Positions 16,874-37,883 of a DNA stretch of 64,000 nt are shown piece by piece. This DNA is from a bacterium (GTDB taxonomy: Bacteria > CLD3 > SB21): the NCBI GenBank assembly GCA_019695335.1, contig JAIBAF010000014.1, forward strand, positions 1 through 64,000, given 5' to 3'. Each line of letters starts with the position of its first letter. Position 1 is the first letter of the stretch. The notes under the pieces were generated by a model. The model did no database searches. It saw only the letters and a program-made list of their open reading frames with translations, and had not been told where the DNA came from. The translations under genes were made by a program, and so were the position numbers.

Positions 16874-17635
16874 TTAAACGCCTTCCATTGATTCCAATTC
16901 GGCTCTTATTGATCCTACGGCAATTTTACTTTTCATTAAAACAGGTATTTTTCTTGCATCATCGGTTAGCCAAATATTAAGATCGGATCGGTTTTTAAAA
17001 GGTCCTATGGGTGTTTGAACGACAATACATTCGAAATCACCGGCAGTTACGGAAACTCGCTCCTTCCGCAACACTTTTACGATAACATCACGATACTTTC
17101 CATTGTCAAAAGTTGACAGTGTAATCTCATTTCCGATAGCTAGAGGCTGTGTCCGTATGTAATAGAAAGCTGATATAATATCCTGAACATAAACAGGGAC
17201 ATTTACTTCTGTTTGTCCAGAATCAACATCGGCTATCGATGCTTTGCCCGTATCATGATGAAAATCGACTACAAAATTTCGTTTATATCCACCTTCGCTT
17301 GTATTTTTGACATAACGAAGAGGGTATATACCTTCCATATCGACATACGTTTCCAGTCGATTTCTTACTTTATATAGCGTTGAAAAAAAGGCGTTGGAGT
17401 TTGTAACAGCTGAAATAGAATAACAAGGCCGATCGTTGATTGTCGTTGCACTTTCTACGTTTAGGACCGCTGTGCCGGCACTAATAAATTCCCACCCGAT
17501 CGAAAATGATAACTTTTCGCCAACCTTAAATGCATTGTTCTGAATTTTTCGGAGTGATTCGTCTTGGTATTTACTTTCTTCAGCATTCGAAGTTATGTAA
17601 ACCGTTAAAAAAACAACCAATAATTTAATGATCAT
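16874..17635 (-). CDS. DUF3108 domain-containing exported protein
   Basis: Protein of 253 residues with an N-terminal signal sequence. The mature start FKVGEKLSFSIGWEFISAGTA and later DMEGIYPLRYVKNTSEGGYKR and VWLTDDARKIPVLMKSKI-like segments match DUF3108, a periplasmic family of unknown function. The start overlaps the phosphatase stop as ATGA, so translation is probably coupled. The esterase follows after 33 bases. Confidence 0.86.
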   Translation of the reverse strand: MIIKLLVVFLTVYITSNAEESKYQDESLRKIQNNAFKVGEKLSFSIGWEFISAGTAVLNVESATTINDRPCYSISAVTNSNAFFSTLYKVRNRLETYVDMEGIYPLRYVKNTSEGGYKRNFVVDFHHDTGKASIADVDSGQTEVNVPVYVQDIISAFYYIRTQPLAIGNEITLSTFDNGKYRDVIVKVLRKERVSVTAGDFECIVVQTPIGPFKNRSDLNIWLTDDARKIPVLMKSKIAVGSIRAELESMEGV

Positions 17636-18489
17636 GAGCTGATTAAATTAGGATAGATTTTTTGATTGGCTCGATGAATAATATTGGGAAATATTTCGTC
17701 AAGCACGTTCCGAATTTCATTAAATGTTTTTTGATAGAATTCAATGCCGAGCCCCATTGGGTCGGGAATTGAATCTATCAATCCTGCCGATCGTTCCTTT
17801 CCAAAAGCTTTTAATAAGAATGTTTTGTGCCTTGCGCTCGGAAAATTGTCCAAAATAAAATTAAGATGATCGATAGATAGCGCAAAAATAATATCGGATT
17901 GCTCGACTAAGACTCGATTAATTGATTTTGACCGGATTGCAGAAATATCTATACCGTTTTGTTGTGCTATTTGGACAGATTTTTCAGATGGCTTATTACC
18001 CTCAAAAGCATAGATACCGCATGATTGAATCCAAATTTTATCTAGCAGGCTTGGAGGCGCTTCTTCTTTAACTTTCTTCTGCAAGATCCCTTCTGCCATA
18101 GGGCTACGGCACATGTTTCCCGTACAAACAAATAGAACAGAATAAATATCATTAAAACTATAGGTTCCCATATAACTCTCTACAATATTAAACGGCCGAT
18201 CCAGATTATCCAACGGCGATTTTATTATTTTTGGTTCTGTGGGTCGCTGACGATCATTTCTGGGCGAGATTTTTTTTATTGAACTGATTCGTCGTTTTGA
18301 AATTATCTTCTTTCTGGTTTTTGACTTTTCATTTTTATTTTTTTTCTTAACTATTTTTTTTGAGCCAACTTTAGCGTGTTTCTTTTTCTTGATCGTTTTG
18401 CTTTTTGAGGTGCTTTTTTTCACTCGTGCTTTCTTTTTTTTCAAAAGTTTTTTTTGAGTTTTTTTAAGTTTCTTTTTTTTCTTTTTCAT
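17632..18489 (-). CDS. Low-molecular-weight protein tyrosine phosphatase with lysine-rich N-terminal tail
   Basis: Protein of 285 residues starting at ATG 18489 (a TTG at 18513 is possible but would overlap the upstream stop). Residues 1-75 are an extremely basic tail of Lys, Arg and Ser with no hydrophobic core. The phosphatase domain begins near 115 with the P-loop CTGNMCRS (Cys122) and ends with the general-acid IPDPMG motif, as in arsenate reductase / LMW-PTP enzymes. The usual family length is about 150 residues, so the tail is an addition. It could bind nucleic acid, polyphosphate or another acidic polymer. Gene order places it between a radical SAM enzyme and a DUF3108 protein. Confidence 0.87.
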   Translation of the reverse strand: MKKKKKKLKKTQKKLLKKKKARVKKSTSKSKTIKKKKHAKVGSKKIVKKKNKNEKSKTRKKIISKRRISSIKKISPRNDRQRPTEPKIIKSPLDNLDRPFNIVESYMGTYSFNDIYSVLFVCTGNMCRSPMAEGILQKKVKEEAPPSLLDKIWIQSCGIYAFEGNKPSEKSVQIAQQNGIDISAIRSKSINRVLVEQSDIIFALSIDHLNFILDNFPSARHKTFLLKAFGKERSAGLIDSIPDPMGLGIEFYQKTFNEIRNVLDEIFPNIIHRANQKIYPNLISS

Positions 18490-18502: not shown

Positions 18503-19594
18503 TTATACAGCAACGGGTTCGTTGGTTGTTTTTATATTAAAAGAACTGGATTTAATTTCTTCCTTCTCGAAAACTTCTACCTCCAATCCCTCAGAACAAT
18601 TGGTACAAATCGGTATTTCTTTTCGCTTTCTGAAAATTTGATTTCTGAATTTTGCATACTCGCTATTTTTCCAGATACGACGCATTCCTCCGTCTGAAAA
18701 AATGTTTCCCAATGGATATTCAGCGTTTTTATCAAAACAACACGGCGAAACGGTTCCATCCCAATTAATAACGGGGCATAGTAATACCCATCTGCAAAAA
18801 TTGATCTCTTCTATACGTGCTTTGAATCGGCCGTTGCCGTCCAGTTCATACCGTCTATATTTTTCGTTTTTAGGTAAAAACTCCTCCGCTTGTTCATCGG
18901 TATAAACTTGAGCTGTTTTAAACGATAAGACCTGAACACCACACTCTTGCCCCAGTTGTCGTATCGCTTCAAATTCGTGTTCATTATGTTTCATAACAAT
19001 GAATTGCAGTTCAATAACGGGTGTTTTACTTCCTAATTTTTTTTTTGAATCAGAAACCGCAAGGAGACCTTTGTATACCTTTTCAAATTTTCCGTTGACT
19101 CGATATTTCTCATAGGTCTCTTGTGATGCTCCATCTACAGCGACTATCAAAGTGCTTAGTCCTGAACGTACAATATTCTCAGCGTTTTCAATTAGAAAAT
19201 GCCCGTTGGTACTGGTCATGGTTTTTATTCCCCGATCAGTAGCATATCGAACCATCTCGGTAAATTGCCGGTTAACAAAAGGTTCACCTTGGCTCCATAG
19301 AGTCAAATGAACGAGATACCTTCCCATCTCATCTATCAACTTTTTGAATTTATCCAAATCCATTAAACCATCTTCACGTGTCATTAATTTGCTTCCAGTT
19401 ATACACAAAGGACAGCGCAAATTACAGATATTAGTAGGTTCGACCATCATTAAAAACGGATAACCAAAAACAATATTCTTGCGCGTTATTTTGCATACTC
19501 CATAAGAGAAAAAAACAAGTAACATGTTTGGTATTTTCCATAAATTTCTAGGACGTGATAGTATATCGATAATTTCTGTTAAGATGTAATTCAT
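18503..19594 (-). CDS. Radical SAM/SPASM domain protein
   Basis: Protein of 363 residues. The radical SAM cluster motif is CNLRCPLC (Cys57, 61, 64). The C-terminal SPASM-like region has INFCRWVLLCPVINWDGTVSPCCFD split over about 255-285 and a late ICTNC pair, indicating auxiliary iron-sulfur cluster ligands. SPASM proteins mature peptides or modify enzymes, yet no small precursor peptide gene is seen next to it. It heads the - strand run that ends in glgA. The substrate cannot be named. Confidence 0.88.
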   Translation of the reverse strand: MNYILTEIIDILSRPRNLWKIPNMLLVFFSYGVCKITRKNIVFGYPFLMMVEPTNICNLRCPLCITGSKLMTREDGLMDLDKFKKLIDEMGRYLVHLTLWSQGEPFVNRQFTEMVRYATDRGIKTMTSTNGHFLIENAENIVRSGLSTLIVAVDGASQETYEKYRVNGKFEKVYKGLLAVSDSKKKLGSKTPVIELQFIVMKHNEHEFEAIRQLGQECGVQVLSFKTAQVYTDEQAEEFLPKNEKYRRYELDGNGRFKARIEEINFCRWVLLCPVINWDGTVSPCCFDKNAEYPLGNIFSDGGMRRIWKNSEYAKFRNQIFRKRKEIPICTNCSEGLEVEVFEKEEIKSSSFNIKTTNEPVAV

Positions 19595-19878: not shown

Positions 19879-22800
19879 TCATGTTCCAATTGAAATGTTA
19901 ATATTTATACCAGCCAAGACACGAGTGATTTTTCCCGCAATTAGACTCTTATTGCTTTCGTATTTGAAAAACATTCCACCCGTCAGTCGACTGGTGAATG
20001 AATAGTCTACTCTAGGTTCAAGCGACCAAATAGTGGCTTCATCGGTCTTTTTCTTTTCAGGAATTTCTAAAGTTGTGTTGTAGTTAAAAGAAAGTCTCTT
20101 ATTGTATGCAAAAGTGTTTGAAATCCGTATTTCGTTGTTGAGTTGTTTATTTTTCAAAAACCACAATGGCAAACGGAATCCGCCACGTTTGACATAAGAT
20201 AATGTAGAGGTTATAGACTTGGAATTGGTCGTCTGCCTAGATTTTTGTTGTGTATTTTCGATGTTTGTGTTGGTAAAAGTAATATTCTGCGTAATTCCGC
20301 CTTTCCACATAATATCAAAACCCATTTGCGGAAAAGTTTTGTTGGTGCTTATGTTGTCTGTAACAAATTTTCTACCATTACTTACAAATTCTTTACCTGG
20401 AATTCCTCCTATTGGCTTATCGCTTTTATATTCAGTAAAAAACATAGTCTTTTTCGAATTATAGTTGAAGTTGAAATTAATATTGTTTGTGAGACCGCTC
20501 ATAAGATTAAAGATCGGCCAACGACCAATATTCGACGCTCGAAGTGTAAGATCATAAAATATTGGTAAAGGAGACGACTGTAGCCACGGAAATAACGTCG
20601 AAGTTGTTTTTGTTCGCGTCTCAATATTGTTAGTACCAATTCCACGGCTTTCCGTATAATCAAATCGAAGATCTACAGTGAAATAAATAAAATTGAAACC
20701 GTACGTAAATCCATAATTTAATGTTTTGCGGGCCTGGTAAGTAAAGAGTCCTTGGCTTTGATAAATTCTGTTTTTATTAAATTGTTCTATTGTATCAAGG
20801 TTGAAACTAAAAAGATTATGAAGAAAATCGCTATTGGGTGTTGTAGTATAGCCGAACCACGTCATTGATGGGTCGGGGCGTTGATCAAGTCCACTCAAGG
20901 TAACCGAATTATCAAACGATGTGTTGAAACGAACATCATTAATCATGTTCAATGCCTTTTCGGTCAAAGACCCGAACTTTCGGGAGATTTTCTTGAAAGT
21001 ATTTTCTGATTGAGTAGAATCTTGCGTTTCTTGTGTTTCAGAGCCCCCCGAGCTTAAGCTTTTGAATTTGTCTCTTCTTCCGCGACGCCCACTTTCCTGC
21101 CCACCAGTTGGCTGCTTTTGTTTACCACTTCCTTCAATCGATTCACCCACAGATGATATGAAATTTCGAATACTATAGGTCATATCCAATTGTATTCGTC
21201 GCGTTAATTGAGAAGCTTGATTAAATCGTGTTTGCGGTGGCCGCTGGCGGACAATCGAATGCGTCGAAGTGTAGGTAAGAGTATGAGTTAGGAATCGAAA
21301 TGATGTCGGAGAGTAAGAGAGATTAAAAGAATTTGCTGTTGAATAATCTCGATTAAAAATCAAAGAATCAGGATCATTTTTTCCTTTTATTGTATCAATG
21401 GCTGTCCGATATTCAAAATCATCGAAGCCGTCAAATGGGTTAAGTCCTTTTGTTATGCCTTTTAGAATTTGTCCGGAAGACAGGCCACGTAGGTCTGACT
21501 GATATTTGACGGCGATCGTTGAGTTCAAAGATTGCCAAGGGCTTATTCCTAAGGAGTAACCTCGAGTGGCCGTCAAGGAGTTAAAGAAAGGTTTTTTGAC
21601 AGGTAAACCTTGCGCGTCGCGTTCAGTAGTTTCTGTTCGAGTAGATGTCAAAGAAAAATCAGTCGATAAATTGGTTAGCAAACTGTAATTGAAGTCTGTT
21701 TCTTGAATATTTTTAAAAATTGAGCCAATGAATGGAGTCTCAGCCAAAGGCATCCATTTGAAAACTTTTAACGATCGTTTCTTGACTCCCATATTGTAAG
21801 CTGTCGCACTCGTCCAATTAGTATTTTTGCTGTTGACAACGGTGGGAGATTTCGACTCAGAAACCGTATAATTGAAGTTGGATGTTAGATTGTCTATGGT
21901 ATATCGAAGCAACCAAAAATTGTTTTCATTTTTTGATTTTGAGAAACTCAGACTGAAACCACGAGATGTATTGATAGTGCGTATTCGAGAATCGAAAGTT
22001 TCTGCGATCGAAATCTGAGTGCCGACACTATCTTGTTCACGTTCAAGTCGGCTAATATAACTAGTATCGCCTTCAATGGAGTTTAAATAGTTTAAGCTAT
22101 CTGTAATTACAAATGCGCGATTCCGCAGAGATTCTAAATTCAATCCGTTTTGTTTTCTGGCATCTTTAACGAGAATATCGTTATTAGGTACGTATTTTGG
22201 ATCAACTTGGCTATGATTAATGTTGAAAGTGAGTGGTAAATTGATTCCCCAGCGTTCGATGTAAAATTTATGAAGATTGACACCTCCACTAAAATTCCAA
22301 TTTCGTGCATTTCCTGAATTTGCATCAAATCGCTGATCAATAGTTCGAAATTCTGAAGTTCGATATTGTATTAATCCGCTAAATGAAGCAAAGTCCGCTA
22401 AATTAAAAACCAATGCGGCTTTAGCGGCATATCCAGGAGCGTCATTGACATCCGATACGCGAAGCTCATTTACCCAAATTTCACCAGTGTAAGGTGTCGA
22501 ATTTCCATCGTTAGTCGCTCCTATATATAATTGTCTGATAGAGGCTATTGATGGATTACCTTTGATGCGGAGGATTTTTCCATCACCTAAATCAAATGTT
22601 TTTGTGTTTAAAGAATCCGGAGAAACCGAGGCATCAAATTTCTTTTTGGATAAATCTGAAAAATCGATATTGATTGAATTTTTGCTTTCGGCCCAATCGG
22701 CAAATAAAGGTTGTTCAATTTCGAAATAATTATTTTTGTCGCCTCCAAAACGGAAGAAGAATTTTATAGGACTTTGGTTAGTCTGAGTATCTTCGACGGG

Positions 22801-25800
22801 TAATGTAAGATTACCACGAGTGTCACCATGAACAAACATGCGCATTCGTCCATAATTACGCAAATCCGATGATTGTATGTTTTTAACAATTACAGCCGAT
22901 GCAGTAGATGGCAAATTATTGAGTTTAAGAGACAAAGACTGTTCTTTGACTTGCCTGTCGCGGTTATTACCAGCCTGTCCTGATATATATTCATTTTTAA
23001 CACTACGGGGTTTATCATAAAAAGAAGTTTCTTCTGTATTTGCATAAGAAATTTCGACAATTTTAGATGCATCATCAGCATTTATAGGTGGTATACTCGG
23101 AGGCAGAACAAGTCCATTGGCATTTTCTTCAGGAAAGGTCCATTCACTACTTACAAATTGCATTTCGGCCAGTTGAAAAGAAATAATCGAAGCGTCATTT
23201 GTTTCAGGAGATACCCACAATCGTGCGTTCCTGATATTTTGCAAACTGGGATTGTTTATAGCGGTATCCGGTCTTGAAATTGGAATTCTGTAGAGACGCC
23301 AATTAGGATCTTTACCTTTTCCAATAACTAAATTAGTGTCAGAACTGTTAGGATCTATTGAGAAAGAATACCTAAAAAATGAATTGTTCAGATCGATGAC
23401 ACCATTACCGTCCAGATCTTCTGTATCACCAAATTTTGTAATACCATCTACTTCATTGCCGGTCACGTTTTTTTCGATACCATTTACTTTTATTTGATCA
23501 ATATTGCCATCGCTAATCGCTTTTTTGATATCATCAACGCCTTCCAATTTTGCTTGAAACGGATTCCAATCGTCGCCGAAAGGATCTTCAGTTGAAGCAT
23601 TTATAACACCCCATGGATAGATAATTTGTAGGCTATCAATAATTCGTTGTTGATCCACGGTTACATTTGTTGAACCGGGAATAATACCTAAACTTCTCAA
23701 AATGCTATCTTCTTTTACATTTGAAAAATTATCCAATCCAATGTCTTCGTCATCGCCGATAGCAATTTGAAGGCCGGATTTAATTTCCTTATCTAATTCA
23801 TTGTTTCCATTCTGGTCTTCTGAAATTGCACCCAGATCAATTGTAACTCTGGTTTTTTGATTGGTCTCATTTTTGATCCAAAGTTCAATAAATTTGGTTT
23901 CTGCAAGCTCTTTTGCGGCTGAAATAGAAAAACCTTTCATAATACCACCCCATGACTCTGAAATTAGAGAAGGATTTTTTGTTTGGGGTTTAAGCGCAAC
24001 TTCTAAAATGGTTGTTGTTTCACTATTGTTTACATCGATTTGGCTTAAGTCTTGTTTCTTAACTTGATTTTGAAACCATATGAATTTGCCTCGCATAGAA
24101 GAATCTTTGAACGCTGGCGTGCTGGATAAAATCCATGATCGTCGGGTCGTTCCTAGCGGGAATGTTCTTTTGACAGCTTCAAAATCGTCTATATAGGCAA
24201 CACCGTTTTCGTTTTGTCGAATAAGACCATTGCTGGTATTGGGATTTGGAAGTATTTTTGCATATTCTGCACGAATATTAATTTTCGATGGTTGATTCGA
24301 GGAAATTAATGGGATATAGTTTACAAAATTTGTCAGGTATTTTGCGTTGAACTCAAGATTAGTATTAACATCCCAGACAAAATTATTGTATGGCTCTTCA
24401 CCTAATTGAACTCGCTTGTTGATTGTTGACTGGCTTTGAAATAATGCTGTCGTCCCAATAAATGAATTCTGCCCAAAACCGTGCTCCGATAAATTGTACT
24501 CTGCACGAGCCCCAAAAATAGATTTTTTATCAATCTGAAAAAGCTGTGCTTGCTCATAGTTAATTTCAAGATCGGCAGTTGGTAGCAAAGCGGCCTGATT
24601 AAGTAATTCAATCGTTCCAGAAAAATAGTCTATTACATAATCCACGTCTTTTTGTAAAGATGTACCATTGAGGATTACTTCTTCACTGCCTTCAAGCACA
24701 TTAAATCCCAAGTTGATAGTGCTTGTTTTTTTTGTAGTCGTTAGTTCTATTGAAAATTGATTTGCGGTTCTGTTTTTTTGCTCGCTTAGGCCGCCTCGAT
24801 CAAGATCATAAAAGTTGGCGAATCTTACTGAATCGGTTCCAATAACTGAAGGATATGCTTCGTTTAAAAATCCGGATAAATTATTTAAACCCGGGTCAAA
24901 AGGTCGCAATCTAGGAAAGATTAAATAACTTCTTCCAAAGTCGATAACGTCCTTATCAACTATATTATCTGGTCCGCCGGAATTTTCTCCAACTTCGTCA
25001 ATATGCAAGATTTCCATGATGCCTCGAGATTTATTGTCGGCATCATTCACGACGGTCAGTTCATTATTAATTCCATTAGGTTTGAATTTTATTTTAAGGG
25101 TACGAGTCTCTTCTTCGGATAAACCCGGTGCTCCAAAATCATATATATTTTTAAGTTCAAGATTCCATGTTGGATGTGAAGGACTAGGATTATTTGACCA
25201 AATCATTTTTAAAAGTAAGTTGGTAGTATCAGTATTGCCAATTTCATTACCGTCTTGGGTTTGAAACCAAACAGCTAAAATTTCTCCCAGTTGTACCGGT
25301 GTTGCCATTGTTATAATACCAAGCCGTGAGTCATAAGTATATTCAGCGCCTTTTACCATTTCTAGAAACCATCCGGATTGAGCTGTAGCATCAAGTTGCT
25401 TAAGCGTTTCAAAATTAAGATTAACACTGTTGGGGTCGGCAAGAATTCCGTTATTCGTAAGAGCAGTTCCTTGAATACTACCAGGAACTTTTTGGTTGTT
25501 TTGAGAGGCTTTGAAAACCTTTATTGCAATAATTTCTTTTTCAGGAAAGTAAGTATGTTGATAACGGGCCTGATAACTTTCATAATTGTCTCTGTATGAG
25601 TTGTCAAGAAAAAAGAATTTGGCTTTAGCATATTCATAGGAAGATCTTTTGATGGTTGTACCTTGCTCAGAGCCGCCCTTAAATTTGAGTTTTGTTTTTT
25701 CACCGCGTTGTAAACTGGCGATCGTGGTGAGATTAAGGTTGGCCAATTTAAAAAGCGCTTTTACTCCAAACAACCCTTTGTTTTGTCCGCCGGTTGTTAC

Positions 25801-26799
25801 GAACTCTGTTCCCGGGAGCGAAAGGTCTATATTACCCGCTTCAAGTTTTTGTAGGATTTCGTCGTCAAATCCTGTGTATGTCAGTTTGATATTGTTTTCA
25901 AAATCGAACTCACGTTCGCTGTCTTGATCGAAAAGAATTTCTACTTTTCGGCCAATTGTACCGCGCAGATTGAACTGCTGTTTTTGTTCGAATTTAGGAG
26001 TGAATTGAGTTGTTTTTCCCGTAGTTTGATTCTGGTTTGAAGATTTTTCACTTGCGCCTGAAACGCTTAAGTTGATGTTTCCGGTTGCATCGACTGCAAC
26101 CTCATCGCCGCCAAATATTTTTTGAAATGTTTCATTGGTCGTAACTGTAGCCGAAAAAAGTCGGACCGCGCCCCCTGTTTTCTCCTCTTGTTTTGATAAG
26201 CTGTTTGTTACAGATTTTGTAAACGAACTTCGAATTTCGTTTGTAAAATTTTCTCTGAAATATTCTTCTCGGTCAACTATGGTTTCTTCTTTGAAAGAGT
26301 TCGTGTATTTCCCTCTACCATACCGGTCTTGGAAAATGTAAAAATTCTGAGCGGTATCGATTTCTGTATTTAAAGCATAATTGGGCAATAAAGTTTGTGT
26401 TTGTGAGAAGTCAATCGATGGGCCACGTAACAGAAAGAAATTGTTATTTGGATTTAAAGAAATGGCTGAAGAATAGCTGAAAGGATACAATTGAAAGCTT
26501 GATTGAGTTACAGACGAATTTTCGAACAAATCGGCTTCGTCAATAATCGTTTCCGATACAATATGATGCATGTATCCGTTAATGCCGAATTGGTCGGCAA
26601 AAGCCGACAAAAGCCCCGTTAAGTAGTTTTCTGCTTCTTGTACAGATTCGTTTTCAGAAGTTAAAGAATCAAGAATTCCGGTTGAATCAATTCTTACAAT
26701 AGAAGAATCGCTCTGAGCATATGATGGATGGCAAAAAAGAAGAAGAAAGAAGATCGAGAATAAAGTATAAATTCTCACCGACAGAGGCAGTTTTTTCAC
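19879..26799 (-). CDS. sprA: SprA-family cell-surface translocon protein (type 9 secretion)
   Basis: Giant outer-membrane protein of 2306 residues with an N-terminal signal peptide (ends near SYAQS). In flavobacteria SprA forms the 36-stranded barrel through which type 9 secretion substrates leave the cell and is needed for gliding. Family-like features are the repeated paired segments such as LRGTIGRKVEILFDQDSE and FDFENNIKLTYTGFDDEI with KLEAGNIDLSLPGT, the ENGVAYIDDFEA segment and a long beta-rich C-terminal half. No other gld/spr/por genes are in the window, and no gene here shows an obvious type 9 C-terminal sorting domain. It sits next to rsmG at the origin cluster. Confidence 0.88.
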   Translation of the reverse strand: MKKLPLSVRIYTLFSIFFLLLFCHPSYAQSDSSIVRIDSTGILDSLTSENESVQEAENYLTGLLSAFADQFGINGYMHHIVSETIIDEADLFENSSVTQSSFQLYPFSYSSAISLNPNNNFFLLRGPSIDFSQTQTLLPNYALNTEIDTAQNFYIFQDRYGRGKYTNSFKEETIVDREEYFRENFTNEIRSSFTKSVTNSLSKQEEKTGGAVRLFSATVTTNETFQKIFGGDEVAVDATGNINLSVSGASEKSSNQNQTTGKTTQFTPKFEQKQQFNLRGTIGRKVEILFDQDSEREFDFENNIKLTYTGFDDEILQKLEAGNIDLSLPGTEFVTTGGQNKGLFGVKALFKLANLNLTTIASLQRGEKTKLKFKGGSEQGTTIKRSSYEYAKAKFFFLDNSYRDNYESYQARYQHTYFPEKEIIAIKVFKASQNNQKVPGSIQGTALTNNGILADPNSVNLNFETLKQLDATAQSGWFLEMVKGAEYTYDSRLGIITMATPVQLGEILAVWFQTQDGNEIGNTDTTNLLLKMIWSNNPSPSHPTWNLELKNIYDFGAPGLSEEETRTLKIKFKPNGINNELTVVNDADNKSRGIMEILHIDEVGENSGGPDNIVDKDVIDFGRSYLIFPRLRPFDPGLNNLSGFLNEAYPSVIGTDSVRFANFYDLDRGGLSEQKNRTANQFSIELTTTKKTSTINLGFNVLEGSEEVILNGTSLQKDVDYVIDYFSGTIELLNQAALLPTADLEINYEQAQLFQIDKKSIFGARAEYNLSEHGFGQNSFIGTTALFQSQSTINKRVQLGEEPYNNFVWDVNTNLEFNAKYLTNFVNYIPLISSNQPSKINIRAEYAKILPNPNTSNGLIRQNENGVAYIDDFEAVKRTFPLGTTRRSWILSSTPAFKDSSMRGKFIWFQNQVKKQDLSQIDVNNSETTTILEVALKPQTKNPSLISESWGGIMKGFSISAAKELAETKFIELWIKNETNQKTRVTIDLGAISEDQNGNNELDKEIKSGLQIAIGDDEDIGLDNFSNVKEDSILRSLGIIPGSTNVTVDQQRIIDSLQIIYPWGVINASTEDPFGDDWNPFQAKLEGVDDIKKAISDGNIDQIKVNGIEKNVTGNEVDGITKFGDTEDLDGNGVIDLNNSFFRYSFSIDPNSSDTNLVIGKGKDPNWRLYRIPISRPDTAINNPSLQNIRNARLWVSPETNDASIISFQLAEMQFVSSEWTFPEENANGLVLPPSIPPINADDASKIVEISYANTEETSFYDKPRSVKNEYISGQAGNNRDRQVKEQSLSLKLNNLPSTASAVIVKNIQSSDLRNYGRMRMFVHGDTRGNLTLPVEDTQTNQSPIKFFFRFGGDKNNYFEIEQPLFADWAESKNSINIDFSDLSKKKFDASVSPDSLNTKTFDLGDGKILRIKGNPSIASIRQLYIGATNDGNSTPYTGEIWVNELRVSDVNDAPGYAAKAALVFNLADFASFSGLIQYRTSEFRTIDQRFDANSGNARNWNFSGGVNLHKFYIERWGINLPLTFNINHSQVDPKYVPNNDILVKDARKQNGLNLESLRNRAFVITDSLNYLNSIEGDTSYISRLEREQDSVGTQISIAETFDSRIRTINTSRGFSLSFSKSKNENNFWLLRYTIDNLTSNFNYTVSESKSPTVVNSKNTNWTSATAYNMGVKKRSLKVFKWMPLAETPFIGSIFKNIQETDFNYSLLTNLSTDFSLTSTRTETTERDAQGLPVKKPFFNSLTATRGYSLGISPWQSLNSTIAVKYQSDLRGLSSGQILKGITKGLNPFDGFDDFEYRTAIDTIKGKNDPDSLIFNRDYSTANSFNLSYSPTSFRFLTHTLTYTSTHSIVRQRPPQTRFNQASQLTRRIQLDMTYSIRNFISSVGESIEGSGKQKQPTGGQESGRRGRRDKFKSLSSGGSETQETQDSTQSENTFKKISRKFGSLTEKALNMINDVRFNTSFDNSVTLSGLDQRPDPSMTWFGYTTTPNSDFLHNLFSFNLDTIEQFNKNRIYQSQGLFTYQARKTLNYGFTYGFNFIYFTVDLRFDYTESRGIGTNNIETRTKTTSTLFPWLQSSPLPIFYDLTLRASNIGRWPIFNLMSGLTNNINFNFNYNSKKTMFFTEYKSDKPIGGIPGKEFVSNGRKFVTDNISTNKTFPQMGFDIMWKGGITQNITFTNTNIENTQQKSRQTTNSKSITSTLSYVKRGGFRLPLWFLKNKQLNNEIRISNTFAYNKRLSFNYNTTLEIPEKKKTDEATIWSLEPRVDYSFTSRLTGGMFFKYESNKSLIAGKITRVLAGININISIGT

Positions 26800-35468: not shown

Positions 35469-37883
35469 ATGTTTGATCTAGATATGATTAAAAAGGTTTA
35501 TCAAAACCTCGATACAAAATTAACAAAAGTACGCAAGCTGTATGGTCGGCCGTTGACCTTAACTGAAAAAATTCTATGTTCACATTTTTCTGAAATGCTT
35601 AAATCAGCGCCAGAACGTTTTAAAACATATGTTGATTTAGCGCCAGATCGCGTTGCCATGCAGGATGCTACTGCGCAGATGGCATTGTTACAATTTATGT
35701 CTTCAGGAAGGAAAAAAGTTGCTGTGCCATCCACTGTCCATTGCGATCACTTAATTCAAGCGGAAGTTGGTGCATTGGGAGATCTGTCGCGCGCCGAAAA
35801 GGACAACAGAGAAGTTTATGATTTTCTTTCCAGCGTCTCTAATAAATACGGAATTGGTTTCTGGAAACCCGGAGCCGGTATCATCCACCAAGTGGTTTTA
35901 GAAAATTACGCATTTCCCGGTGGCTTAATGATCGGTACAGATTCACATACACCCAATGCCGGAGGACTCGGAATGCTGGCCATCGGCGTTGGTGGCGCTG
36001 ATGCCGTGGATGTCATGGCCGGACTACCGTGGGAATTGAAATGGCCAGGCGTGACAGGCGTCAAACTGACAGGATCGTTGTCTGGATGGACATCCGCTAA
36101 AGATGTTATTTTAAAGCTAGCAGGAATTTTGACAGTAAAAGGAGGAACTGGAAAAATCGTTGAATATTTTGGATCCGGGACCCAGTCCATCAGCTGCACA
36201 GGTAAAGGAACAATTTGTAACATGGGCGCTGAGATTGGCGCTACGACATCAGTATTCCCTTTTGATACACGAATGGCAACTTATTTGCGTTCTACTGAAC
36301 GAAGCGAGTTAGCCGCATTGTGTGAAAAATTTGCGCAACATTTAATGGCTGATCCGGAAGTATATGCATCACCTGAAAAATATTACGATGAAATTATTGA
36401 AATCGATTTGAGCGCTCTTGAGCCTCATATCAATGGTCCTTTTAGCCCGGATAAAGCTTGGCCAATTTCTCAATTCAAAAACGCCGTTGATGAAAACGCC
36501 TATCCGGAGGAAGTTAAAGTTGCACTGATCGGCAGTTGTACAAATTCATCGTACGAAGATATCGAACGTTCTGCAAGCATAGCGCGTTTAGCTGCACACA
36601 AAAATCTAAAAACCAAATCGGAATTCGTAATAACTCCGGGCTCCGAACAAATTCGGGCAACGATCGAGCATGACGGTCAACTGGATGCTTTGACGAAAAT
36701 TGGGGGCAAAGTTTTGGCCAATGCATGCGGCCCATGTATCGGGCAATGGAAACGTCATGACGTGAAGGACGGCGAAAAAAATACTATCATTACTTCTTAT
36801 AATCGAAATTTCGCCAAACGTAACGACGGTAACTCGGCTACGCATTCATTTGTCGCAAGTCCTGAAATTGTGACGGCCTTAGCAATTGCCGGTTCATTAA
36901 AATTTAATCCTCTTACTGATTATATCACTACTCCGTCTGGTGAGCAAATCAAGCTTCTTCCCCCGAGCGGCGATGAATTACCCAAAACAGGTTTTACATC
37001 TGGCGACGTAGGTTATGTTCAGCCGGCTAAAGACGGGTCAAAAATCAAAGTTGTCATCGACCCTAAAAGTACAAGACTTCAAGCTTTACTAGCATTCAAA
37101 AAATGGGATGGAAAAGACATTGCTGATGTTCCGGTATTAGTCAAGGCCAAAGGAAAATGTACAACCGATCACATTTCACCGGCAGGGCCGTGGTTAAAAT
37201 TTCGTGGCCATTTGGATAATATTTCCAATAATCTTTTTATTGGCGCTGTCAATGCTTTCGGATATGAACCCGGTAAAGGGAAGAATGTAATAACCGGTGA
37301 AGTAAAATCTTTTTCAGAAAACGCCCGTTATTATAAATCACAGGAAATCGGATGGATTACCATTGGTGATGAAAATTACGGTGAAGGATCCAGCCGCGAA
37401 CATGCCGCTATGGAGCCTCGTTATCTGGGCGGTAAAGCAATCATTGTAAAAAGCTTTGCCAGAATTCACGAGACCAATTTGAAAAAACAAGGAATGCTGG
37501 CGCTCACTTTCAAAAATCCTTCAGATTATGATTTGATACAAGAAGACGATCGATTATCCGTTATCGGGCTTCAATCATTTTCACCGGGAAATATACTGAA
37601 ATTGATTATCAAACATTCTGATGGTACGCAACATGAATGTGAACTCAATCATTCGTATAATAAAACTCAAATTGAATGGTTTAAAGCAGGAAGCGCTCTA
37701 AACTTGATGAGTATTCTTGACAAAAAAACACCGGCCAAACCGTCAAAGAAAAATGCTAAAAAAACAAAGAAAAAGAAGAAGCTTGTTGCAAAAAAAGCTG
37801 CGAAAAAAACACTAAAAAAAGTGGCAAAGAAATCGGTGAAAAAGTTAAAGAAAAAGACAACTAAAAAAAACCGTAGAAAATAA
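35469..37883 (+). CDS. acn: Aconitate hydratase with lysine-rich C-terminal tail
   Basis: TCA-cycle enzyme converting citrate to isocitrate, 804 residues. It is of the mitochondrial-like type. The 4Fe-4S ligands lie in [10 protein letters not shown] and [10 protein letters not shown], and the swivel domain has [16 protein letters not shown]. The catalytic protein ends near residue 750, the normal length; residues about 751-804 are a tail of Lys with Ala, Thr and Val repeats (for example [18 protein letters not shown]), resembling histone-H1-like or AlgP-like tails. A GGAG site precedes the ATG. Function of the tail is unknown. Confidence 0.95.

Follow-up and report, generated by a model that had tools for sequence, protein, structure and literature searches.

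Lysine-rich tails recur on a tyrosine phosphatase and other, unrelated proteins of one bacterial lineage

Polycationic arms have been described before on proteins of the bacterial nucleoid and of granules. AlgP and PhaF of pseudomonads carry histone-H1-like C-terminal arms which, according to excerpts of the source, are long, rich in Lys/Ala/Pro/Thr/Ser and of high net positive charge, and which are described there as binding DNA and positioning polyphosphate (polyP) or PHA granules (PMC9239181). HbhA and HupB of Mycobacterium tuberculosis have a basic, Lys-rich terminal region that has been likened to histone H1 (excerpts of PMC10665949), and Lys-rich regions are also present on the translation-linked proteins YihI and Rnr of Escherichia coli (excerpts of PMC12345225). 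The open-licence literature, in which absence is a weak sign, yielded no paper on a Lys-rich tail of a bacterial LMW protein-tyrosine phosphatase (LMW-PTP), aconitase or transketolase.

The DNA analysed here is a stretch of 64,000 nucleotides (the window), which encodes on its minus strand a phosphatase of 285 amino acids (ATG at 18489, stop ending at 17632). Instead of consisting of one compact domain of some 150 residues, this protein has a tail of about 90 residues, a linker and, inside it, a domain of normal length. Judged by sequence, the domain is a member of the LMW-PTP family and the whole protein a new architecture.

Features of the phosphatase locus and of the second tailed enzyme in the window. 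Columns: feature; positions in the window; strand; observation.
Feature	Positions	Strand	Observation
Lys-rich N-terminal tail, residues 1-90	18220..18489	-	38 K, 7 R; found in 7/7 family genomes
Linker, residues 91-116, consensus NLxRPFNI[IV]ESYMGxYxFND	18142..18219	-	conserved
LMW-PTP domain, residues 117-285	17635..18141	-	Pfam match 118-265
P-loop C122-TGNMC-R128-S129	18103..18126	-	C122, R128, S129 invariant across 30-homolog alignment
Asp-Pro (presumed general acid), D243-P244	17758..17763	-	invariant across 30-homolog alignment
Upstream radical SAM/SPASM gene	18503..19594	-	same gene order in 5 orthologous loci
Downstream DUF3108 gene	16874..17635	-	overlaps phosphatase stop
Lys-rich C-terminal arm of aconitase, residues 748-804	37710..37880	+	aconitase model ends at residue 747 of 804

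The normal LMW-PTP domain that the earlier note had placed behind the tail is present as an intact LMWPc match (PF01451; E 2.4e-27, 96.3 bits against a cut-off of 23.2 bits), which covers positions 1-142 of the 144 of the profile. We take the P-loop and the Asp-Pro pair to have their usual catalytic roles, the latter as the general acid. The nearest solved chains by sequence are 4egs and the YwlE-type 4pic, and the whole catalytic domain, including both motifs, is alike. The protein differs from the YwlE type in having M126 in its CTGNMCRS loop, where the YwlE-type sequences of the 30-homolog alignment mostly have Thr. The P-loop Thr of YwlE sets the preference for phospho-arginine, and phosphotyrosine is therefore the likelier substrate type, though the nearest solved relatives include chains of the YwlE type. 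A search for the McsB arginine kinase gave no PF00217 match, and the control search likewise matched in 0/14 genomes. The phosphatase appears to be an ordinary LMW protein-tyrosine phosphatase that is predicted to be catalytically intact. In the AlphaFold2 model, confidence is high for the catalytic domain alone: pLDDT is at least 93 over most of it, but mostly about 50-60 in the tail and linker. An exception within the tail is residues 2-25, which are drawn as a helix with moderate confidence (pLDDT 74-83); only 2 of the 30 rows of the input alignment span the tail.

Besides its Lys and Arg the tail contains 9 Ser, 9 Ile and 3 Asp/Glu residues. A basic tail had been described before as about 75 residues consisting mostly of Lys/Arg/Ser; it is real and somewhat longer, at about 90 residues, and is Lys-rich rather than an even mixture of the three. 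AAA makes up 29 of its 38 Lys codons, and the GC content of this part of the gene is 0.28. With 33 Lys in its best 60-residue window, the phosphatase ranks first among the 51 ATG-started ORFs of at least 120 amino acids in the window, followed by an aconitase with 28; the next value is 14.

Nine genomes of this phylum were compared, seven from the taxonomic family of the window (f1) and two from a sister family (f2). The search in orthologs that had been proposed for the tail located it in all seven f1 genomes, the contig of one (G002) beginning inside the tail. Its length in this family is about 85-105 residues, counting the start of the linker. The ATG lies 13-24 nt past the stop of the upstream gene in 6/6 genomes where both are readable, and this retained spacing supports the start at 18489. 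Between genera the tails share 24-37% identity, compared to 17-21% when the letters of these columns are shuffled, while linker and catalytic domain share 71-83% and 66-72%, respectively. Within genera the dN/dS of the tail is 0.21 (G000/G001) and 0.30 (G004/G006). Lys sites are kept more often than other sites in both pairs: 36/39 versus 28/45 in G004/G006, whose tails align without gaps (Fisher p 0.0017), and 32/37 versus 26/52 in G000/G001, where the alignment is gapped and the figures depend on it (Fisher p 0.0006). Since the sequence is nearly scrambled between genera while composition and Lys positions are retained, the tail is best read as a translated arm that is selected for its composition more than for its sequence.

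A start downstream of an unconserved tail, which would have made the tail an annotation error, is not what the orthologs contain. Residues 95-106, just ahead of M107, are conserved as protein, with synonymous codon changes, which makes a downstream-only start untenable; most codon changes in the linker are synonymous too. An artefact or wrong start can be ruled out, since tail, start and linker are all kept in f1. It is conceivable, though very unlikely, that two products are made, the tailed form and a tailless phosphatase from a second start at M107. This Met is invariant in 7/7 f1 sequences and sits about where tailless LMW-PTPs begin; however, the codons ahead of it vary synonymously (GAG/GAA, AGT/AGC, TAT/TAC) and no fixed ribosome-binding stretch was seen before it.

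To see how far the arm extends beyond f1, 80 LMW-PTP loci were fetched from named genomes, one of which (L032) belongs to f1. None of the other 79 has a Lys-rich arm with linker, with one locus (L068) unreadable in frame, which agrees with the earlier view that the tail is not part of the LMW-PTP family. Some of these loci have long in-frame upstream stretches, which are other domains or unverified open frames. A match in G105 (query 31-271) looked at first as if it extended into the tail, but belongs to a different gene, which stops ahead of a normal LMW-PTP. The LMW-PTPs of f2 have 158-164 residues and are not clean orthologs, since their gene surroundings differ. Among the loci examined, the tail thus appears to be lineage-specific and limited to f1.

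The order radical SAM gene, phosphatase, DUF3108 gene is kept in 5/5 orthologous loci for which both flanks are available. In the window, an esterase-like and then a starch-synthase-like gene follow beyond the DUF3108 gene, all on the strand of the phosphatase. A DUF3108 gene is also found near a tailless LMW-PTP in 5 of the 79 loci outside the family (L033, L034, L035, L037 and L061, with records from Zixibacteriota, KSB1, Caldithrix and one other bacterium), directly adjacent in three of them. The open frame of the phosphatase starts there only 11-20 residues ahead of the catalytic Cys, and on the simplest reading the LMW-PTP/DUF3108 pair is older than the Lys-rich tail. This pairing is conserved in several phyla and is unexplained, independently of the tail. 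On the same strand of the window lies a gene for a very large protein of 2306 amino acids with a SprA_N match (19879-26799). SprA_N marks a gliding- or secretion-type protein that is best known from Bacteroidota, and the host of the window belongs to another phylum.

As an additional approach we looked for tails of the same kind on other proteins of the genome. The window and 60 further 20-kb stretches, which were chosen by contig number and not at random, make up 34% of the genome and contain 1,487 open frames of at least 120 residues; shorter frames with basic stretches (ribosomal proteins and likely out-of-frame readings) were left out. A strict filter (K≥10, K+R≥12 and D+E≤1 within 30 residues) is passed by six of these frames. 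Apart from the phosphatase they code for the aconitase of the window (35469-37883, plus strand), a transketolase with a C-terminal arm (stretch L160), RsfS (L157) and a YbjN/TY-Chap-like protein (L161), both with N-terminal arms, and a sigma-70 family protein whose Lys-rich arm is likewise N-terminal (L152:18634-19371, plus strand). In 400-kb samples of two other genomes, the same filter is passed by 1/541 frames in G003 of f1 (its RsfS) and by 0/360 in G008 of f2.

Four of these arms were traced in relatives and are kept within the family. That of aconitase is found in the six f1 genomes with a readable C-terminus (the gene of G004 runs off the contig), and those of the YbjN-like protein, of transketolase (in G006 the contig ends within it) and of RsfS are found in 7/7; for RsfS the listed start is GTG or TTG, so that its exact first residue is unsure. 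Neither f2 genome has the arm on aconitase, which ends in both about where the f1 arm starts, or on the YbjN-like protein. RsfS of f2 also lacks it, with 122 residues in G007 and a 128-residue open frame in G008. No f2 transketolase was matched at E 1e-50; as a substitute for this comparison, the more distant G009 and G014 were used, and their transketolases have no arm. The aconitase arm is likewise missing in the more distant G016. Altogether, 26 arms have a K+R content of 36-56%, 0-5 Asp/Glu and 0-3 Phe/Trp/Tyr. Lys-rich tails of one kind therefore seem to recur on unrelated proteins of the f1 lineage.

The tail is of low complexity, AT-rich and fast-evolving, and it might be asked whether an A-rich stretch came to lie in frame by chance and was retained without function. 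This is highly improbable: frame, length class and Lys sites of the tail are maintained over four genera, arms persist in the GC-richer genome G003 (0.45-0.46), and they are also built with AAG codons (up to 11/25, in L006). AT-rich DNA alone is not sufficient to generate such tails and can be ruled out as their source, since the G008 sample without a single such frame comes from a genome of lower GC content (0.34 versus 0.425).

Searches for Lys-rich patterns at the DNA level gave a less distinct picture. Runs of seven Lys codons are no commoner in the genome than expected by chance (5 matches compared to 5 in the control), and this pattern does not pick up the window's own tail. The pattern KKxxKKxxKK, for which 98 genomes were scanned, is mildly enriched in f1 (126 matches compared to 86 in the control), and shows no excess in G004-G006 (42 compared to 44). 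Some unrelated genomes have more of it (G033, 28 versus 5 in the control; G041, 45 versus 11), and Lys-rich stretches as such are thus not exclusive to the f1 lineage. Dense stretches are located in G041 (G041:C2:24492-24788 and G041:C6:423606-424154, both on the minus strand) and are indicated by the counts for G033; going by this DNA pattern, they possibly code for histone-H1-like proteins.

The recurrence on unrelated proteins suggests a shared way of anchoring to a negatively charged component of the cell. Since charge is kept without sequence, the simplest account is that the phosphatase shares a recurrent histone-H1-like tail with aconitase, transketolase, RsfS, the YbjN-like protein and the sigma factor, and that this tail would act as an electrostatic tether, independent of sequence, to a polyanion inside the cell, with nucleic acid the most likely one. 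We give this reading a probability of about 0.5. The partner would be nucleoid DNA or ribosomal or messenger RNA, the tether would concentrate the attached protein there, and dephosphorylation by the phosphatase could thereby be placed at the nucleoid or the ribosomes. RsfS acts on the ribosome and the sigma factor on DNA, and it is because of these two bearers that nucleic acid is our first choice. The compositional similarity to the DNA-binding arms of AlgP and PhaF speaks for the tether. The mild enrichment of KKxxKKxxKK in f1 and its absence in G004-G006 count against it, as do the higher counts in some unrelated genomes and the fact that, of the six bearers, two are enzymes of central metabolism that are not known to need nucleic acid. 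Disorder of the arm and any effect on dephosphorylation are inferred, and the helix modelled at residues 2-25 counts against full disorder. A tether to DNA, RNA, polyP or an acidic surface polymer had been suggested previously; a polyanion tether remains plausible, whereas a surface polymer is unlikely, since the tailed proteins are of kinds found in the cytosol and a hydrophobic segment is missing from the tail.

The main rival to nucleic acid is polyP, to which the Lys-rich tails would bind as chains or granules and so place or regulate the enzymes, above all in starvation; we consider this rather unlikely. All seven f1 genomes encode PPK1 (PF02503), but so does the tailless f2 genome G008, so that its presence does not discriminate. 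The arms are dominated by Lys and not Arg. Excerpts of the literature report polyP binding by disordered, Lys-rich regions of YihI and Rnr from E. coli, cite polyLys as a polyP binder (PMC12345225), and locate AlgP with its H1-like arm on polyP granules (PMC9239181). However, the PASK definition given in the first of these excerpts, at least 75% D/E/S/K in 20 residues with a Lys (PMC12345225), is reached by only 2 of the 26 arms, with 15 such residues, while the best 20-residue window of the phosphatase tail has 14. Still less probable is a role without a polyanion polymer, in which the arms would contact anionic membrane lipid or an acidic protein or tune solubility or stability. Charge alone would suffice for this, and composition, not sequence, is what is kept; yet the arms have next to no hydrophobic or aromatic residues for insertion, and the same arm at either terminus of six unrelated cytosolic proteins fits a common polymer better.

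Going beyond the nucleic acid tether, f1 might use Lys-rich tails as a general address label that gathers the six proteins in one compartment by polycation-polyanion attraction and couples central metabolism and phosphatase signalling to it. The compartment would be the nucleoid, ribosome-rich RNA or a polyP condensate. We put this forward tentatively and regard it, compartment included, as doubtful; the label could perhaps be switched by Lys acylation or by the polyP level.

Compared to LMW-PTPs elsewhere, the protein of the window adds an N-terminal Lys-rich arm and a linker that are absent from the loci examined. Its arm belongs to a set of 26 that resemble those of AlgP and PhaF in being long, Lys-rich and poor in acidic and aromatic residues. 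In contrast to AlgP and PhaF, no KPAA repeat is kept in the f1 arms, which sit on enzymes, a ribosome factor and a regulator instead of on granule or nucleoid proteins. HbhA and HupB differ in the same direction, being nucleoid-associated proteins and not enzymes. The Lys-rich region of YihI also has acidic residues, going by excerpts of its description (PMC12345225), whereas the f1 arms are nearly free of them and mostly fall outside the PASK rule. What stands out here is that metabolic enzymes and a phosphatase of a single lineage have such arms as a conserved trait, selected for composition. Together with the f2 orthologs without arms, this offers a natural with/without comparison for asking if charge by itself is what bacteria use to sort soluble enzymes.
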